Positions 24,287 to 32,981 of a stretch of DNA of 37,650 nt are shown here, piece after piece; the stretch's first letter is position 1, and every line of letters begins with the position of its first letter. The stretch is from NCBI GenBank assembly GCA_902565895.1, contig CACFGV010000019.1:1-37650 (forward strand). The letters run 5' to 3'. The translations under genes were made by a program, and so were the position numbers. The notes beneath the pieces are model-generated. The model was not told where the DNA came from and did no database searches. It saw nothing but the letters and a program-made list of their open reading frames with translations. Source of the DNA: K189A clade bacterium (GTDB lineage Bacteria; Pseudomonadota; Gammaproteobacteria; Pseudomonadales; Azotimanducaceae).

Positions 24287-27007
24287 ATGTCAAAGGCGGC
24301 AACCAAGGCCAAAACACAATTCGTTTACGCCTTTGGCGTTCACACCGACGGCGAGGCTTCCATGCGCGAAAAACTGGGTGGCAAGGGCGCAAACTTGGCA
24401 GAGATGGCGCTTATTGGCCTACCCGTGCCGCCGGGGTTCACGCTCTCGACAGATGTTTGCACCGCCTTCTATGCCCACAAAGAAAAGTATCCTGTAGGGC
24501 TTGAGGCTGAGGTGGGTAAAGCCGTTGCTGATGTCGAGAGGCAGCAGGGTAAACGCTTTGGTGATCCTGCGAACCCTTTGTTGTTTTCGGTACGTTCGGG
24601 AGCACGGGAATCTATGCCGGGCATGATGGATACGATTCTCAACCTCGGTTTGAATGACGCAACTGTCGTTGGGTTGGCTGAACGCGCCCAGGATGAGCGT
24701 TTTGCTTGGGATTGTTATCGCCGCTTCATCCAAATGTATGCTGAGGTCGTGATGGGGGTGCATTCGCGTAGTGAAGCGGAGCCGCCGCCTTTTCAGCAGC
24801 AGTTGGCACGTCTTAAACACGAGTTGGCTGTCACGGAAGACCAAGATCTCAGTGCCGCCGATTTGCGCGAGTTGGTGAAGCGCTACAAACGCCTGATCAA
24901 GCAACGCTGTAAAGCAGCTTTTCCGCAGGATGTCTACGAGCAACTATGGGGCGCGATCGGTGCCGTCTTCAAATCATGGAAAAACGAACGGGCAATACTC
25001 TATCGCCAGCGTTACGGCATTCCAGTCGAATGGGGTACTGCGGTTAATGTTCAAGCCATGGTATTTGGTAACCTCGGAGAGACCTCCGGCACCGGGGTTG
25101 CTTTTACCCGCGACCCAGCCACCGGCGAGAAGGTCTTCTACGGTGAGTATCTGCTGAACGCTCAGGGCGAGGATGTAGTAGCCGGGATTCGCACGCCGAA
25201 AGAAATCACGCTGCTCGCTCAGGACATGCCTGAGGTTTTCGCCGAGTTAGAGAAAGTTCGGGGGCGTCTAGAGCGCCACTTTAGGGATATGCAGGACTTT
25301 GAGTTTACGATCGAGGATGGGCGCCTTTTCATGCTCCAAACTCGCAACGGTAAGCGCACCGGGCTGGCTGCTGTGCGTATTGCCGTTGAGATGAATCGAG
25401 AGCGTCTTATGACCCGAAAAACAGCGCTCCTAAAAATTCCCGCAGAGAGCATCGATTCCCTGCTGGTACCTGTCTTCGATGCCAAAGCACGGCGCGAAGC
25501 GTCGCGTATTGGCCATGGTTTACCTGCCGGTCCTGGGGCCGCATCAGGGCAGATCGTGTTTTCTGCTTCGGAGGCTGAGCGCAAAGCACGGCTCGGTAAC
25601 AAGGTCATTCTGGTGCGCGAAGAAACCTCTCCGGATGATCTGCGCGGCATGCTGCTGGCCCAGGGCATTTTGACAGCTCGGGGAGGGGTATCCTCGCACG
25701 CGGCTTTGGTTGCTCGTCAGCTTGGCAAAGTGTGCGTGTGTGGTGCCAGTGGATTGCTGATCAATTATTCGGCTCGAACCCTCACGGCCGGTGGGGTGAC
25801 CCTTAAAGAGGGTCAATATCTGTCTATTGATGGCAGCAATGGACATATTTATGCGGGCATGATCGAGACCACCGATTCCGAGGTGAAGCGAGTGCTGCAG
25901 GGTCAGATGGCTGCGAAAAGCAGCGCCACTTTCGAACTTTTTGAAACGGTCATGGGTTGGGCGGATAAGGCACGGCGGATGAAAATTCGCACGAACGCTG
26001 ATACGCCTGCCATGGCCAAGGCGGCAATCGCTTTTGGCGCCGAAGGCATAGGCCTATGCCGCACCGAGCATATGTTCTTTGAAGGCACCCGGATCGACTA
26101 TATGCGTCAAATGATTCTGGCGGCTGATGTGCAGCAGCGCGGGCGGGCATTGAAAAAGCTGTTGCCGTTTCAAAGAAAGGACTTTCAAGGACTGTTTCGC
26201 GCAATGAATGGGCGTCCGGTCACGATTCGCTTGTTAGATCCGCCGCTGCATGAGTTCTTACCCCACGACGAAGCCCACCGCGCGGAGCTTGCGCGTACGT
26301 TAAATGTTTCCACGGAATACATAATCGAACGCATGAAGGCGCTGTATGAAGAAAACCCGATGCTTGGGTGTCGCGGTTGCCGGTTGGGGATTCTGCATCC
26401 AGAAATAACCGAAATGCAGGTTCGAGCGATTTTTGAGGCTGCTGTTTCGTTACAAAAGGCCAAGCGTCCAGTGGTGGTGCGGCCGGAAATAATGGTCCCC
26501 TTGGTTGGTTTTGATGCTGAGCTGAAGGACCAAGTGGCGATTGTGCGAAAAGTTGCCGAGGAAGTGGTAGGTCGCTCCGGGGTGAAGATCTCCTATAAGG
26601 TCGGCACCATGATCGAAGTGCCCAGGGCAGCCATTACGGCTGACGAGATCGCGCAAACGGCGGAGTTTTTCAGCTTTGGAACCAATGACCTCACCCAAAC
26701 CACTTTGGGTCTCTCTCGAGACGACATGGGCTCTTTTTTTGATGTCTACCGGGAGAAAGAAATTTATGGCCACAATCCCTTTGCCAGCATTGATCAGGCG
26801 GGGGTAGGGCGTTTGATGCAGACAGCGATTCGCCGTGGACGTGAAACCCGCGCGGCTTTGAAGCTGGGTATTTGTGGTGAGCACGCTGGTGATGCCGCCT
26901 CGATAGCATTTTGTGAAGAACTGGGCCTAGACTATGTAAGCTGCTCGCCACCGCGTGTACCTGTCGCCCGACTAGCGGCCGCGCAAGCCGCGCTTTTGCA
27001 AAAGTAG
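24287..27007 (+). CDS. ppdK: Pyruvate, phosphate dikinase
   Basis: PPDK interconverts pyruvate, ATP and phosphate with PEP, AMP and PPi. The 906-residue protein has the expected order. The ATP-binding domain begins with [10 protein letters not shown] and includes [20 protein letters not shown]. The swivelling phosphohistidine domain carries H471 in [16 protein letters not shown]. The C-terminal TIM barrel has [20 protein letters not shown] and GICGEHAGD. The residue two before His is Ser, where well-studied PPDKs have Thr. GGGGG precedes the ATG. It stands alone with a long upstream gap; no PPDK regulatory protein gene is adjacent. Confidence 0.95.
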
Positions 27008-27106
27008 GGCCCTTATCGGTTTACCTGTCCAAGACGCATTGACCCAAGCTCCTGCAAAAATAGTGCCTTTATCGGTTCACCCGTCCAAGACCCATTGACC
27101 CAAGTT
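26998..27106 (+). repeat. Imperfect tandem duplication across the ppdK stop codon (two copies, 56-bp period)
   Basis: Copy 1 (26998-27050) starts in the last codons of ppdK and includes its TAG. Copy 2 is at 27054-27106. Aligned without gaps, 46 of 53 bases match, including the blocks TTATCGGTT, GTCCAAGAC and CATTGACCCAAG. Copy 2 also keeps a TAG at the matching place. Confidence 0.9.
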
Positions 27107-27199: not shown

Positions 27200-27949
27200 A
27201 TGACCTATTGCTTAGCGATTGCCTTGGACGAGGGCTTGGTTTTTTGTTCCGATTCGAGAACCAATGCGGGCGCGGATAGAGTCAGTTCATACAGTAAAAT
27301 GCATCGTTTCGCGTTTCCGGGTGAGCGGTCTTTAGTGCTACTCAGTGCAGGTAATCTTGCAACCAGCCAAGCGGTCGTGGCGCAAATTCACCGTGACTTG
27401 GAGGCTGGAGAGTCTGCCCCCATTCATCGTGCAGAATACGTGTCTGACGTTGCGGATTACATTGGTGACTTAATCGCCAAGGAAAGTGCTAAGTATTCCG
27501 CTGCTGGGGGGCCGGGTGCAGAGTTAGACGCCAGTGCCACCTTTATTCTCGGGGGACAAATAGCCGGTCAGCAGCCCGAGCTATATATGGTTTATCCAGA
27601 GGGCAACCACATCACACCCTCACAGGCGCATCCTTTTTTGCAGATTGGTGAGACAAAATACGGCAAACCTATTCTTGACCGCATCATTCGTGCAGACACG
27701 CCGATACAGACGGCCTTAAGGTGTGCGATTGTGTCGCTGGACAGCACAATGCGATCCAACGTGACGGTGGGACCGCCTATTGAGGTGCTGTTTTATCAAA
27801 AGGATTCGTTGCAGCCGTATGAGTGGTATGCCGAGTTGGACGAATCACACCCCTACCTGGCTGAACTTCGGCAGAGTTGGGATGACAATGTTAAGAGTGC
27901 GGTGGAGCAACTGCCGACTCTAGATTTTGCGTTTTTACAGCGTCGGTAA
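27200..27949 (+). CDS. Anbu-type proteasome-like Ntn peptidase
   Basis: This 249-residue protein is an ancestral-beta-subunit (Anbu) or bacterial proteasome-related Ntn hydrolase. After Met removal, the catalytic Thr1 of TYCLAIAL is exposed. The residues matching proteasomal Asp17 and Lys33 are present as D17 in FCSDSRTNAG and K32 in SSYSKMHRF. Further family blocks are LLSAGNLATSQAV and ASATFILGGQI. Known Anbu proteins assemble into rings or open helical rings, but in vitro activity has been hard to show. There is no clear ribosome-binding site. The 3' end overlaps the convergent metallopeptidase gene by 59 bases. The facing ATP-grasp and alpha-E genes are the usual Anbu companions. Confidence 0.92.
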   Translation: MTYCLAIALDEGLVFCSDSRTNAGADRVSSYSKMHRFAFPGERSLVLLSAGNLATSQAVVAQIHRDLEAGESAPIHRAEYVSDVADYIGDLIAKESAKYSAAGGPGAELDASATFILGGQIAGQQPELYMVYPEGNHITPSQAHPFLQIGETKYGKPILDRIIRADTPIQTALRCAIVSLDSTMRSNVTVGPPIEVLFYQKDSLQPYEWYAELDESHPYLAELRQSWDDNVKSAVEQLPTLDFAFLQRR

Positions 27950-28937
27950 CAGCGTTCGCAAATTGCAGTTTTTCGGCGACCTTTTCATTGATGACGAAAG
28001 GATAGGCGTCATTCAAACCCATGCTTCTATTCAGCTCGTTGAAGCCAACGCTGAGATCACGCCAACTTTGTATTCGCTCATCGAAGGTCTGATCCCTCAG
28101 CGGCGTTGGGATCAGTTTGAAACTAGCCGCGGTTTCAAGAGTGTCGTGAAGGTGCAAATAGTGTCCCCAGGTTTCTGCCCAATCTTCTAAGGGGTGAGAG
28201 CTTGCGTAGGGTGTAATATAGTCTCGATCCCAGTCTGGTGTGGCGCCATTGGCATAAAACCGTTGTAAGGCTTGGTTGTAATCCTCGCTGCTGTCACCAA
28301 AAAGTGCAGCGAAGCTTTGTTGCAGGCAGTGATCTTCGGTGAACAAGCTGTATACGTAGTGGCCGCTCTCGTGCCGCAGATGGCCTAATACTGTTCGATA
28401 AACCTCATTTGCCGCCTGCTGTTCAACAAACCGCAGGGCCGGATCTGCCTCAAGTACATTGAGAGTGATGATGCCGTCCAAAAACCCAGTAGTAATGAAG
28501 GACGCCTCGGCTTCTGGGTTGCTGCGTTGATCCTCTAAGAAGTCAAAGAGCAAGCCTTTGCCCGGCAGCTGCCAGCCACTGGTGATCGGTATGCCGAGCC
28601 GCAGCAAGCCGTAAAGCAGGCGCTTTTTTCCGGCTTCAATAACCTCCCAACGCTTAATATTTTCCGTGCGGCTTAGGTTTGGGATTGTGCGGTTGTATTG
28701 ACATCCAGAACATAATCCGTCCGATGCATCTTTATGCGCCAGCCAATTACACACCCCGAAATCGATACCGTTTTGACACAAGGTCTTATCAGCGTCTGGC
28801 TCTGTCAGCGCTGCTTGTTGCGGCAGCACTTCAAAGCTCATGGTACTAGGGTTGAAAGCCAATGCGCGTTTACAGAACTGGCAGATACGGCTTTCGAAGA
28901 AAACCTCTGCACCGCAGGGACAGTTGAAACGTATCAT
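27891..28937 (-). CDS. Zinc-ribbon putative metallopeptidase (COG4307/Peptidase_Mx type)
   Basis: This 348-residue protein has N-terminal zinc-ribbon cysteines (C6, C8, C19, C22), a second Cys set (C54, C63, C76, C79), and a downstream metallopeptidase-like domain. The motif HLRHESGHYVY at about 187-197 is a classic HExxH zinc site (H189, E190, H193). HPLEDWAETWGHYLHLH about 60 residues later provides conserved Glu and His as candidate third ligands. The family is predicted to be a peptidase, but I know of no defined substrate. Its ATG overlaps the alpha-E stop by four bases, so it is the last gene of the ATP-grasp/alpha-E operon. It runs head-on into the Anbu gene. Confidence 0.85.
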   Translation of the reverse strand: MIRFNCPCGAEVFFESRICQFCKRALAFNPSTMSFEVLPQQAALTEPDADKTLCQNGIDFGVCNWLAHKDASDGLCSGCQYNRTIPNLSRTENIKRWEVIEAGKKRLLYGLLRLGIPITSGWQLPGKGLLFDFLEDQRSNPEAEASFITTGFLDGIITLNVLEADPALRFVEQQAANEVYRTVLGHLRHESGHYVYSLFTEDHCLQQSFAALFGDSSEDYNQALQRFYANGATPDWDRDYITPYASSHPLEDWAETWGHYLHLHDTLETAASFKLIPTPLRDQTFDERIQSWRDLSVGFNELNRSMGLNDAYPFVINEKVAEKLQFANAVTDAVKTQNLESAVAPPHS

Positions 28938-29866
28938 TCGCTGTGTTGAATGAACCAGCGTGCTGTGATTTCAGCGTTTAGTTGAATCAGGGCGATTTGC
29001 ATGCTGTCGATAAACTTGTGCAACTTGGCGCGATCGTTGTCGGAATTTCGGTAGCGCTGTAGGCGCCTGCGAACCTTATCTGCGTGAGCCAATGGATCAT
29101 TGTGTTTCGGTAAAAGTTTAAGTTCTCGACGCAGCATGTCGATACAGAAAAATAGTGATCTTGGGAAAGTGGGCGCCTTGAAAACAAAGTCGATCATAGG
29201 ATTTTGCTCAATGATGGGTCCTATGGCTTTTCGGTACGCGCTGCGACCAGAGAGCGCCTCGAGTAACGCACCCCACAGAATGGGCTCAATGCCAGAGAAA
29301 GCGCCTTCGCGATCCAGAATGTCTCCTGCGCCTACATCGATAATTCGAGCAGTCATATCCGCTCGCTCAACCATGCGGCCCAAGGTCATAAAGCGGTAGG
29401 CATGGTCTCTTGGTGCGGTGGTTTGCAACAGCCCGGTCAGCGCTTGGCATTGATGAATAATGCTGTCCAAAAACAGCGATCGGCTACCTCTAGACGTTGC
29501 TGTACTGGCCCGCTCGTTAGCAAACAGCTGCAGTTCGTTGACTTGCTCCCATGCTTCTTCTGGTAAGGCGTCTCGCGTAATTCGCAGGTTGTCACGTGCG
29601 CAGTTGATTGCAAATCGAATGCTGCTGGTTGCGCTGTCTCCGGTCACCAGGAACTTGTGAACGTTCATCTCGCTGGGTTGCTGATACCTTTCCTCAAAGG
29701 CGTCTCTGGCGTCGAGAATGTCGATAAGAATAATCCACGGGGGCTCAGAACCCTTTGGGATGTCCATGATTAAGTGGTTATAGCTGCGAACCAGCCTGGC
29801 GGTGTTCTCTGCGCGCTCCAGGTAGCGAGCGAGCCAATAGAGGTTTTCTGCGACGCGAGACAGCAT
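28934..29866 (-). CDS. Alpha-E domain protein (DUF403)
   Basis: This is a 310-residue, all-helical protein of the alpha-E family, beginning MLSRVAENLYWLARYLERAE, the family's typical N-terminus. PRDHAYRFMTLGRMVERADM and the Arg-rich RAENTARLVR are also characteristic. The family is nearly always next to a circularly permuted ATP-grasp protein and is thought to act with it in forming or processing peptide bonds; no activity has been fixed. I chose the ATG at 29866 because it matches the family start and lies one base after the ATP-grasp stop. The frame extends 15 codons upstream. It overlaps the metallopeptidase start by four bases. Confidence 0.92.
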   Translation of the reverse strand: MLSRVAENLYWLARYLERAENTARLVRSYNHLIMDIPKGSEPPWIILIDILDARDAFEERYQQPSEMNVHKFLVTGDSATSSIRFAINCARDNLRITRDALPEEAWEQVNELQLFANERASTATSRGSRSLFLDSIIHQCQALTGLLQTTAPRDHAYRFMTLGRMVERADMTARIIDVGAGDILDREGAFSGIEPILWGALLEALSGRSAYRKAIGPIIEQNPMIDFVFKAPTFPRSLFFCIDMLRRELKLLPKHNDPLAHADKVRRRLQRYRNSDNDRAKLHKFIDSMQIALIQLNAEITARWFIQHSE

Positions 29867-29867
29867 A

Positions 29868-31358
29868 TTAGTGCTCGGTCTCCACCACCCATGTGTCTTT
29901 ACTGCCGCCACCTTGTGACGAATTTACCACCAGCGAGCCTTCTCGCAGAGCCACCCGCGTCAGGCCGCCCTGACTCACCCAGACGTCCTTGCCTTGAAGA
30001 ATGAACGGTCGCAAATCCAAGTGCCTCGGACTCAGCCCAGCGGGCGTCAGGGTCGGTGCAGTAGAGAGGGAGAGAGTAGGCTGTGCAACGTAGTTGTCGG
30101 GGTTCGCTTCAACGAGTGCTGCGACTCTCTTAGCTTCTGCTTTGCTGCTTTGGGGACCAACAAATACGCCATAGCCGCCGGATTCATTCACCGGTTTTAC
30201 GACAAGCTGCGCAATGTTTTGCAATACGTATTCTCGTTCCTTGGCGTTTCTACATAAGTACGTGGGTACGTTTTGCACCAGGGCGTTGCGACCCAAGTAA
30301 TAGCGAATCATATCCGGTACGTAGGCATAAATTGCTTTGTCGTCTGCGACACCCGCGCCGGGTGCATTGGCTATGGCCACCGTGCCAGCGCGCCAAGCGC
30401 GCATCAGCCCCGGTGTACCCAGCATGGAGTCCTCGCGAAAGCATTCAGGATCTAGAAATTCCTCATTGACTCTTCGGTAGATGACATCAACCTGAACGTC
30501 GCCGTCAATGGTGTGCATATAAACCTTGTTGTCGTCCCGCACCTGCAAGTCTCGGCCCTCAACCAGTTCCACACCCATGCCTTGGGCGAGGTAAGCGTGT
30601 TCAAAATAAGCCGAATTGAAAATCCCGGGGGTCAGTACCACGATTGTCGGACGCGAACGATCTGTTGGCGCGACTGAGCAGAGGGTTTTGTAGAGTTGCG
30701 ACGGATAGTCGTCCACCGGCAGGATGCTGTGATTTTCGAATAGCTCTGGGAGCACACGCTTCGTCAATTCTCTATTTTCGATCATGTAAGAGACACCGGA
30801 CGGAACCCGCAGATTGTCCTCAAGAACACGAAACTCACCGTGTTCGTCACGCACTAGATCTGTGCCACAAATATGCGCCCAAGCATCATGTTTGGGCGTC
30901 ATACCTAGGCACTCTTTACGATAGTTCGGCGACTGCAAAACCAATTCTGCTGGCACTACACCATCTTTGAGGATTCTTTGCTCATTGTAGACGTCATGGA
31001 TAAAGCAGTTCAGTGCCTGGGTTCGTTGGGCCAGGCCTCGGCTTATTCTGTGCCAGTCTCGGGCCGGTATGATTCTGGGTACGATGTCGAAGGGCCATGC
31101 CCGATCAATGTTGGTTCCATCCGAGTAGACCGTAAAGCTGATGCCCATCTCTTTGATGGCCAGTTCAGCAGCATTGCGGTAGAGAGCCAAGGATTCCGGC
31201 GCCTGTTTTTGCAGCCACTTGAGCAACCCCGCAGCACCTCTGCGAGCACGCTGTTTTCCGGTAATCAACTCATCGAAATGAGCGTTTGGCGTGTAGATTT
31301 CCAGGATAGACCTTCCATGTTGGTTAAACACCAAGCTAGTGCTGAGACCACTGTTCAA
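29868..31358 (-). CDS. Circularly permuted ATP-grasp protein (DUF404/DUF407 type)
   Basis: This 496-residue protein belongs to the circularly permuted ATP-grasp family, predicted to ligate carboxyl and amino groups with ATP. Conserved blocks are FDIVPRIIPARDWHRISRGLAQ (about residues 90-111), GTDLVRDEHGEFRVLEDNLR, VPSGVSYMIENR, the ATP/metal-binding region VDVIYRRVNEEFLDP, VKPVNESGGYGV and the C-terminal DLRPFILQGKDVWV. Alpha-E and a zinc metallopeptidase follow in a tight operon, with Anbu beyond. The start is uncertain: the longest frame uses TTG at 31358, with further in-frame TTG and GTG codons just downstream, and none has a good ribosome site. An 80-base gap separates it from the ceramidase-like gene. 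Confidence 0.92.
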   Translation of the reverse strand: MNSGLSTSLVFNQHGRSILEIYTPNAHFDELITGKQRARRGAAGLLKWLQKQAPESLALYRNAAELAIKEMGISFTVYSDGTNIDRAWPFDIVPRIIPARDWHRISRGLAQRTQALNCFIHDVYNEQRILKDGVVPAELVLQSPNYRKECLGMTPKHDAWAHICGTDLVRDEHGEFRVLEDNLRVPSGVSYMIENRELTKRVLPELFENHSILPVDDYPSQLYKTLCSVAPTDRSRPTIVVLTPGIFNSAYFEHAYLAQGMGVELVEGRDLQVRDDNKVYMHTIDGDVQVDVIYRRVNEEFLDPECFREDSMLGTPGLMRAWRAGTVAIANAPGAGVADDKAIYAYVPDMIRYYLGRNALVQNVPTYLCRNAKEREYVLQNIAQLVVKPVNESGGYGVFVGPQSSKAEAKRVAALVEANPDNYVAQPTLSLSTAPTLTPAGLSPRHLDLRPFILQGKDVWVSQGGLTRVALREGSLVVNSSQGGGSKDTWVVETEH

Positions 31359-31438: not shown

Positions 31439-32947
31439 TTATGGATCGCCTTTTATGATGTCGGTCACGGCGCGATGGATCGCGGGTGCCGTGTCTGGTC
31501 CTAGCGACACGATTTCGCCGTAGGTTTCTTCTTCCTCCCCGTAAATCCACGGGGCTTCGTCGTCCCATTCGCTTTTGGGAATAATGTAGCCAATCGCATC
31601 GTTAGCGAGGTTGACCATCAAGTTAACGTCGCCAGGCAGCTGGCTGCGCAAGTGGGGAATTTCTTGCGGCGCAAGCAGGTAGTCTGCACCCTTTGGGTTT
31701 TCGATGCCGCCAACGGCAATTTCCGGGTACAACTCCCCAGGAATACCAGTAATCGTCGCATTGCCGAGTTGTATGAACGCAATCTCACTGCGGTAGCGCA
31801 CAAAAGGTGGGGTCAGATGCAGTGTAGGGTCGCTGTCCACTAGGCCCGTGAGGGTGCCCAGTGCGAGCATGAAGTTGGTGATGCCCAACTCGACCTCGCG
31901 AGCCCGAATAGTTAGCAGGGTATTGTCGCTATCGGTAAATTCGCCGTGCTGGGCCGCCTCAATAACGCTATTGGCTAAGCTGTAGCCGAAGGTACGGGCT
32001 TTGTCATGACCTGCCTTGGTGATGTTTTTTCGTAAAAAAGTATCGTAAATCTCATCGCTGGGGCCAGAGGTCATAAGGCCGCCGATGTTGCCGGTGAGCC
32101 ACAAAGTGGTCCCACCCAGCCCTGGCTTTAGTAACTCGCCATCATAGTAAATGCCATCACTCACGCCTTGGCGTAAATAGCCCGCAATGTCCGCAGTCAG
32201 CCACAGGTTTCTATCCCAGGCGAGCTCCACATGGATGCCGAAATTAACCAGGGTACCGATTACCGAACCGTCGGCGCGTTGAAACATCAGGGCGCGAATG
32301 TCCTCATCAATCACCATCGGCTTACGTTTGTCGACGATGGGCGTGAGTGGGTCAGTGGGTATTCGCGCAATAGACATATTCGCTGGCTCAAGGTTAGCAA
32401 TGGCTTTTTCAACAGCGCTAAGAATGTTGCGTTTAAGGGACTCCATGTACTGTGGATCGACGCCGCTGGTGAACAGGCCTGGCCCCCATAAACCTTGGGT
32501 GTCTGGACCCTCATGATTGTGGGTCGCGTGCACCATTAGGTAGTCAATTTGCCACGCCTCTGGCAAGGATTCGCGCACGTCGAGAACAAATTTGCGCATC
32601 AACCCAATGGTGTCTACAGCGACAATACCGATGCGTCGGTCGCCGTCCTCAATCACCACAACAACGGCCATCAAGTCATCCTTCACGCCTTGGGCCGGAC
32701 GTTGTTTCTGGAAACCGGCGATCCAAACAGGATCAAACTGACCGTTGTCATTGCCATCAACCCACTCATCTATATCTGGATCAAATTGAGCATCATCATT
32801 CACATCGATCCACTGATCATACACGTTGGGTGTTATTGGAACCTGTGCAAATCCCACGCGCAAACTACTGGCCACTGCAGATAGGGCAAGAGTGCTCAGG
32901 CAAGTGAGGAGTAAAAGGCGCTGGACCACGGGCCGCACAATCGACAT
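31439..32947 (-). CDS. Neutral/alkaline ceramidase-like exported hydrolase
   Basis: This 502-residue protein has a signal peptide (about residues 1-27), then RVGFAQVPITP. The zinc-site segment resembles that of neutral ceramidases (HATHNHEGPDTQGLWG). A second His is in FGIHVEL, Glu in GIPGELYPE and Tyr in GYIIPKSEW, matching the ligand order of the Pseudomonas enzyme. It lacks the full length of true ceramidases (about 650 or more), so an N-acyl amide or related substrate is possible. Two EF-hand-like loops (DVNDDAQFD at 48-56, DGNDNGQFD at 64-72), 16 residues apart, suggest calcium binding. I chose the ATG at 32947 because AAGGAG lies five bases before it. Confidence 0.82.
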   Translation of the reverse strand: MSIVRPVVQRLLLLTCLSTLALSAVASSLRVGFAQVPITPNVYDQWIDVNDDAQFDPDIDEWVDGNDNGQFDPVWIAGFQKQRPAQGVKDDLMAVVVVIEDGDRRIGIVAVDTIGLMRKFVLDVRESLPEAWQIDYLMVHATHNHEGPDTQGLWGPGLFTSGVDPQYMESLKRNILSAVEKAIANLEPANMSIARIPTDPLTPIVDKRKPMVIDEDIRALMFQRADGSVIGTLVNFGIHVELAWDRNLWLTADIAGYLRQGVSDGIYYDGELLKPGLGGTTLWLTGNIGGLMTSGPSDEIYDTFLRKNITKAGHDKARTFGYSLANSVIEAAQHGEFTDSDNTLLTIRAREVELGITNFMLALGTLTGLVDSDPTLHLTPPFVRYRSEIAFIQLGNATITGIPGELYPEIAVGGIENPKGADYLLAPQEIPHLRSQLPGDVNLMVNLANDAIGYIIPKSEWDDEAPWIYGEEEETYGEIVSLGPDTAPAIHRAVTDIIKGDP

Positions 32948-32981
32948 AGACACTCCTTGGTTCGATCCCCTGTGAAGATGT

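Follow-up and report, generated by a model that had tools for sequence, protein, structure and literature searches.

A Peptidase_Mx-Anbu variant of the Anbu/ATP-grasp/alpha-E system, probably sigma54-driven, in a K189A clade bacterium

Anbu is a proteasome-like N-terminal nucleophile (Ntn) hydrolase for which structures have been solved. Its association with an ATP-grasp enzyme, an alpha-E protein and a transglutaminase-like (TG) protein is already known (PMC6376114, PMC5666114). In the classical operon, as in Yersinia bercovieri, Anbu is the last gene and is co-directional with the others (PMC6376114). The ATP-grasp enzyme of the Yersinia operon frees phosphate from ATP (PMC6376114). Here we investigate the Anbu locus on contig CACFGV010000019.1 of a K189A clade bacterium, of which a stretch of 37,650 nucleotides was analysed (the window). 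At this locus Anbu is convergent with an operon that holds the metallopeptidase gene Peptidase_Mx (Mx) and no TG gene.

Other known systems have features in common with this locus. Pup-proteasome tagging combines ATP-driven amide ligation with a proteasome-family threonine hydrolase and is tied to nitrogen starvation; it differs in that the four genes of the window include no AAA+ ATPase and their ligase is of another family. Fused clusters such as those of Hyphomicrobium, Caballeronia and Paraburkholderia, in which an ATP-grasp/alpha-E fusion stands with TG-DUF2126 and TG genes, likewise have ATP-grasp, alpha-E and an adjoining Mx. In these, however, ATP-grasp and alpha-E are one protein, the large TG protein bears a DUF2126 amidoligase (locus L057), and Anbu is not within 6 kb of Mx. 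For Mx itself, zincins of the LF, PPEP and MtfA kinds are counted among the closest known systems. The window locus shares with the classical operon the Anbu residues Thr1, Asp17 and Lys32, a circularly permuted ATP-grasp enzyme and alpha-E, and a sigma54-like site precedes the ATP-grasp gene in part of both kinds. Besides the exchange of TG for Mx and the convergent Anbu, it differs in that Mx-linked Anbus form a separate group, almost always with Ser31 and Glu194, whereas classical Anbus have Arg/Lys31 and Asp194. The Mx-Anbu arrangement is not named in the parts of the literature covered, which exclude a key 2009 survey. Against that literature the arrangement is new as a variant, while the Anbu/ATP-grasp/alpha-E/TG module is known.

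The operon lies on the minus strand from 31358 to 27891 in the order ATP-grasp, alpha-E, Mx. The ATP-grasp gene (29868-31358, listed from a TTG at 31358; PF14403, E 2.6e-165; solved relative 3n6x, E 1.2e-161) ends in a TAA that is followed, after one base, by the ATG of alpha-E at 29866. The 310 aa alpha-E protein (28934-29866, minus strand; PF04168, E 1.4e-77) has an AlphaFold2 single-chain model with a mean predicted local distance difference test score (pLDDT) of 92.4, and its TGA shares four bases with the ATG of the 348 aa Mx (27891-28937, minus strand). The 249 aa Anbu (27200-27949, plus strand; PF00227, E 6.9e-05) converges on the end of the operon, its tail sharing 59 bp (27891-27949) with that of Mx. 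An initial annotation had described an Anbu with intact Thr1, Asp17 and Lys32 converging on a three-gene operon with junctions of +1 and -4 bases. Coordinates and Pfam families bear this out, with the 59-bp overlap as an addition, and in the Anbu translation Thr directly follows the initiator Met, with both Asp17 and Lys32 present. No AAA+ unfoldase is found by Pfam among the four genes. The true start of the ATP-grasp gene is probably near 31334/31331, not at TTG 31358, because a sigma54-like site occupies 31380-31365 and some homologues have later starts.

The Mx protein has both a zinc ribbon domain (PF10005, E 2.4e-18), with two cysteine quartets (C6, C8, C19, C22 and C54, C63, C76, C79), and a zincin domain (PF15887, E 4.7e-84). 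Its assignment to Peptidase_Mx is given by these profile matches together with an HExxH motif, HESGH at residues 189-193 (28359-28373, minus strand), which is read as the zinc-binding and catalytic motif and is kept in 135/135 Mx rows. The AlphaFold2 single-chain model has a mean pLDDT of 86.9 and a predicted template modelling score (pTM) of 0.88. Two Mx genes elsewhere, L201 and G254:C151, are disrupted by frame or stop codon; both genomes keep TG.

How far is this arrangement conserved? In a sample of 58 related genomes Mx is present in 14, of which 13, including the window's own, are labelled as the same genus. In all 12 of the other same-genus genomes having Mx, it meets Anbu tail to tail. 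Upstream of Mx, alpha-E and ATP-grasp are present in 11 of these 12 neighbourhoods, the contig of L002 starting at Mx; in L004 and L012 the contig stops within the ATP-grasp gene. That of another same-genus relative (L003:3207-4658) is interrupted by an in-frame stop. The fourteenth genome, G055, is from another family and has a lone Mx, with a classical ATP-grasp/alpha-E/TG/Anbu operon elsewhere. Conservation of the arrangement spans 43-88% protein identity within the genus, and beyond the genus it extends down to 38% Mx identity. Same-genus genomes without an Mx match have a fused ATP-grasp/alpha-E protein adjoining TG (L097, L099) and also hold partnerless free ATP-grasp/alpha-E pairs (L095, L096, L098).

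Bacterial and archaeal genomes were scanned for Mx, and of at least 566 relatives the best 80 were kept. Within 6 kb, 33 of these have Anbu and free ATP-grasp/alpha-E, one has Anbu alone, nine have ATP-grasp/alpha-E without Anbu, and 21 have no partner; in 33 of the 80 loci the contig ends within this distance, and because these are the nearest relatives of the window Mx, Anbu is over-represented among their neighbours. Over all loci collected, 50 hold both Mx and Anbu (48 once two repeated contigs are left out). The two genes converge in every one of the 50, with an overlap of 4-86 bp in 40; nine pairs are within 83 bp, and one pair is 1970 bp apart. Two gene orders occur, ATP-grasp and alpha-E being either upstream of Mx, as in the window, or beyond Anbu (Mx><Anbu ATP-grasp>alpha-E). 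In a tree of Mx the Anbu-linked proteins fall into two main lineages and single rows, and one of these lineages contains most loci of the second order. One Mx-Anbu pair (L034:1-6674) is flanked by two tandem ATP-grasp/alpha-E pairs. The Mx-Anbu module is a real variant of the known Anbu system and recurs in dozens of other bacteria. Chance adjacency, which the initial annotation had named as a reason to abandon its reading, does not account for tail-to-tail placement in 12/12 same-genus genomes and 50/50 two-gene loci.

The phylum-wide distribution gives the proportions. An evenly drawn sample of 398 Pseudomonadota genomes was searched for Anbu, Mx, TG (PF08379) and alpha-E, which are present in 145, 72, 208 (207 over cut-off) and 212 genomes, respectively. 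TG matches occur in 135 of the 145 Anbu genomes and 65 of the 72 Mx genomes, counts that include the weak match of G240 (E 4.6e-05), and alpha-E is present in 142/145 and 70/72. Mx adjoins Anbu in four Anbu genomes (G000, G157, G240, G342), always tail to tail. Of 46 Mx loci drawn from these genomes at one or two per genus, nine are in a fused set with TG, four in an Anbu set and three in others; the remaining 30 lack a partner within 6 kb. Across genomes, then, Mx widely accompanies ATP-grasp/alpha-E systems, usually without being adjacent to them, and the Mx-Anbu layout accounts for a minority of cases. G447 and G149 (L118, L125), which are related to the genomes of loci L112 and L124 discussed below, have Anbu and no TG, Mx or alpha-E match.

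The rarity of the adjacency, just 4/145 Anbu genomes, would suit an inherited neighbourhood with no functional meaning. So would the Anbu of G321 (L102), which is nested in the Mx-linked group yet lies apart from its Mx-ATP-grasp-alpha-E set. We consider this very improbable, since the adjacency persists to 38% Mx identity, in both gene orders, and is tail to tail in all 50 loci that hold the two genes.

Does Mx take the place of TG, as had been proposed from the window? Among 105 Anbu loci, some of which end at contig ends, Mx lies within 6 kb in 48, TG in 37, alpha-E only in three and none of them in 17. In the neighbourhood survey that the initial annotation called for, no Anbu locus thus has both Mx and TG within 6 kb. 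At the genome level full-length TG is present for 3/48 Mx-linked Anbu cases (L017, L020, L055) and 52/57 others. Scored as absent are the genome of L041, with a partial PF08379 match (28.8 bits, over cut-off), G240, and four genomes with weaker partial matches (L022, L032, L042, L061); several Mx-linked genomes are incomplete, which biases toward TG absence. A search of the rest of the window's own genome gave no PF08379 match in an assembly that is 68.8% complete, nor was there one in the 12 other same-genus Mx genomes. A TG gene elsewhere in the genome, the case held to count against the proposal, is nevertheless present at full length in 3 of the 34 database genomes with an Mx-Anbu pair (from the best 80 of at least 566 relatives).

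All 48 Mx-linked Anbus fall within one 63-member group of the Anbu tree (Shimodaira-Hasegawa-like approximate likelihood ratio test, SH-aLRT, 100; a quick maximum-likelihood tree with no bootstrap). The remainder of the group comprises nine TG-linked rows in other layouts, two alpha-E-linked and four solitary, and no locus of the group has the co-directional ATP-grasp/alpha-E/TG/Anbu order. Within this group TG is present for 3/48 Mx-linked and 11/15 other Anbus (Fisher p 6e-07). Since the Mx-linked Anbus form part of a single tree group and full-length TG is so unevenly divided, Mx stands where TG stands elsewhere, and replacement of TG by Mx is well supported as a pattern.

The Mx-linked Anbus are distinct in sequence as well. 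Residue 31, beside Lys32, is Ser in 45/48 Mx-linked rows and Arg/Lys in 39/41 outside-group rows, and residue 194 is Glu in 46/48 and Asp in 41/41 (outside-group counts leave out L147). The best match of the window Anbu to a solved chain is 5loy (E 4.3e-69), followed by 5nyw (5.1e-62) and 5lox (8.5e-61). Each of the five solved Anbu sequences gives a higher score with two tested outside-group rows than with the window Anbu; 5lox gives 327 bits with L119 and 209 with the window, and 5nyw gives 448 with L139 and 213. The S1 pocket of Anbu-1 is T20, F30, T48, L52 and S55 (PMC5666114), and that of the window Anbu is T20, Y30, S48, L52 and S55, two conservative changes. Judged by these pocket residues the window Anbu belongs to Anbu-1 and differs from the basic Anbu-2 type as described in the portion of PMC5666114 covered. 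The excluded L147 is a solitary Anbu-2-like protein (I20, A30, R52, R55) whose branch is very long; its Pseudomonadota genome also carries a lone Mx (L184).

The sigma54-type (-24/-12) promoter-like site upstream of the operon, TGGCACACTTACTGCA at 31380-31365 on the minus strand, is the only strict GG-N10-GC match in the window (0.21 expected; present in 18/100 shuffles). It scores 17.2 of at most 19.4 bits with a matrix built from the sigma54 consensus. A sigma54-like site scoring 15 bits or higher is upstream of 16/92 ATP-grasp genes and 2/1236 first-gene controls (p 1e-17); the 92 loci, which do not include the window, are related and so partly non-independent. Ten of these 16 sites are at classical TG loci, three at Mx-Anbu loci, two at Mx loci without Anbu and one at a locus with Mx and TG. 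RpoN is present in 9/10 genomes tested. Such a site agrees with the sigma54-NtrC dependence of a DUF404/407-DUF403-TG-like cluster in Burkholderia cenocepacia (PMC5491218), with the upregulation of Anbu under nitrogen limitation in Pseudomonas putida (as cited in PMC5666114 and PMC6376114), and with the entry of COG3484 in a sigma54 regulon survey (PMC12316311). Nitrogen limitation, acting through sigma54, probably turns the operon on.

These sites and the Pseudomonas putida induction would also fit a nitrogen-starvation protein turnover, in which Mx and Anbu act as ordinary proteases to release amino acids, and the product of ATP-grasp/alpha-E is a small activator or cofactor instead of a tag. 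Fuchs et al. prefer degradation to peptide synthesis in the part of their paper covered (PMC5666114). We judge this improbable: the four genes lack an AAA+ unfoldase, Piasecka et al. detected no peptidase activity in the Anbus they assayed, in the part of that report covered, and the presence of alpha-E in 142/145 Anbu genomes argues against a dispensable ligase pair.

Our preferred reading, which we advance tentatively and at somewhat short of an even chance, is that the locus is a variant of the Anbu/ATP-grasp/alpha-E system, probably sigma54-driven, in which Mx does the bond-cutting job of the TG-like protein. The TG-like protein has a papain-type fold, and if TG and Mx are truly interchangeable then their shared step would be hydrolysis, not cross-linking. 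ATP-grasp and alpha-E would form an amide bond at the cost of ATP, making a peptide or adding it to proteins; Mx would trim or remove that peptide or cut the marked substrate; and Anbu, from its own promoter, would hydrolyse the products through Thr1. Behind this reading are the four genes and their kept arrangement, the near-absence of TG, the distinct Anbu lineage, the intact catalytic residues of Anbu and Mx, and the sigma54-like site.

Several results weigh against it. A site of at least 15 bits precedes just 4/46 ATP-grasp genes of Mx-Anbu loci, the window included, and 0/51 Anbu genes of such loci reach even 12 bits; rpoN was not found in the window's own assembly, the tenth of those tested, which is incomplete. 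The Anbus of Yersinia, Hyphomicrobium and Pseudomonas cleaved none of the peptides tested, and the Yersinia operon proteins formed no detectable stable complex, as reported in the part of PMC6376114 covered. The tree yields only four independent contrasts (mean 3.7 opposite, none the same way, p 0.125), so that replacement of TG as repeated evolution is weakly supported. Most Mx genes of the even sample stand alone, and among the best 80 of at least 566 Mx relatives 16 share an Anbu-free locus with TG: 12 with fused ATP-grasp/alpha-E, three with free ATP-grasp/alpha-E and one with TG alone. Because both sit in these loci, Mx and TG are not simple alternatives, and Mx is a wider companion, not only a TG substitute. 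The claim that the metallopeptidase occupies the TG position is thus supported for Anbu loci (both in 0/105) and qualified by these Anbu-free loci and by the three genomes with full-length TG elsewhere.

Might Mx then serve ATP-grasp/alpha-E systems in general, as an accessory with its own chemistry, TG having simply been lost in these lineages? The co-occurrence of Mx and TG in 65/72 Mx genomes and their adjacency in Anbu-free loci favour this, as do two loci (L112, L124) where Anbu is convergent with ATP-grasp/alpha-E and neither TG nor Mx lies within 6 kb, nor was either found in their genomes (G338, G087). The complete separation of Mx and TG in the 105 Anbu loci, and the failure to find full-length TG in 45/48 Mx-linked genomes, do not fit it well, and we hold it to be unlikely, if a serious contender.

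The preferred reading has a more far-reaching form, which we regard as doubtful: that a second Anbu lineage uses Mx interchangeably with TG in a hydrolytic slot of a nitrogen-stress ligase/protease cycle without an unfoldase, in which a peptide would be made or attached, cut off and destroyed. For Anbu, a natural variant that is free of TG and bears a metalloprotease narrows the role of the variable gene. Inactivating Glu190 of Mx, the predicted catalytic residue, could allow a substrate to be trapped, and the Mx-Anbu set could be deleted in Parahaliea mediterranea DSM 21924, Gilvimarinus sp. 2_MG-2023 and Pseudidiomarina halophila BH195. The sigma54-like site suggests a growth condition worth examining.

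Directly upstream of the operon, at 31439-32953 of the window, is a gene for a 504 aa protein with a weak neutral-ceramidase-like match (PF04734, below cut-off). On the other side, at 26992-27103, two adjoining 56-nt direct repeats, 86% alike, overlap the PPDK gene's end and the spacer ahead of Anbu.

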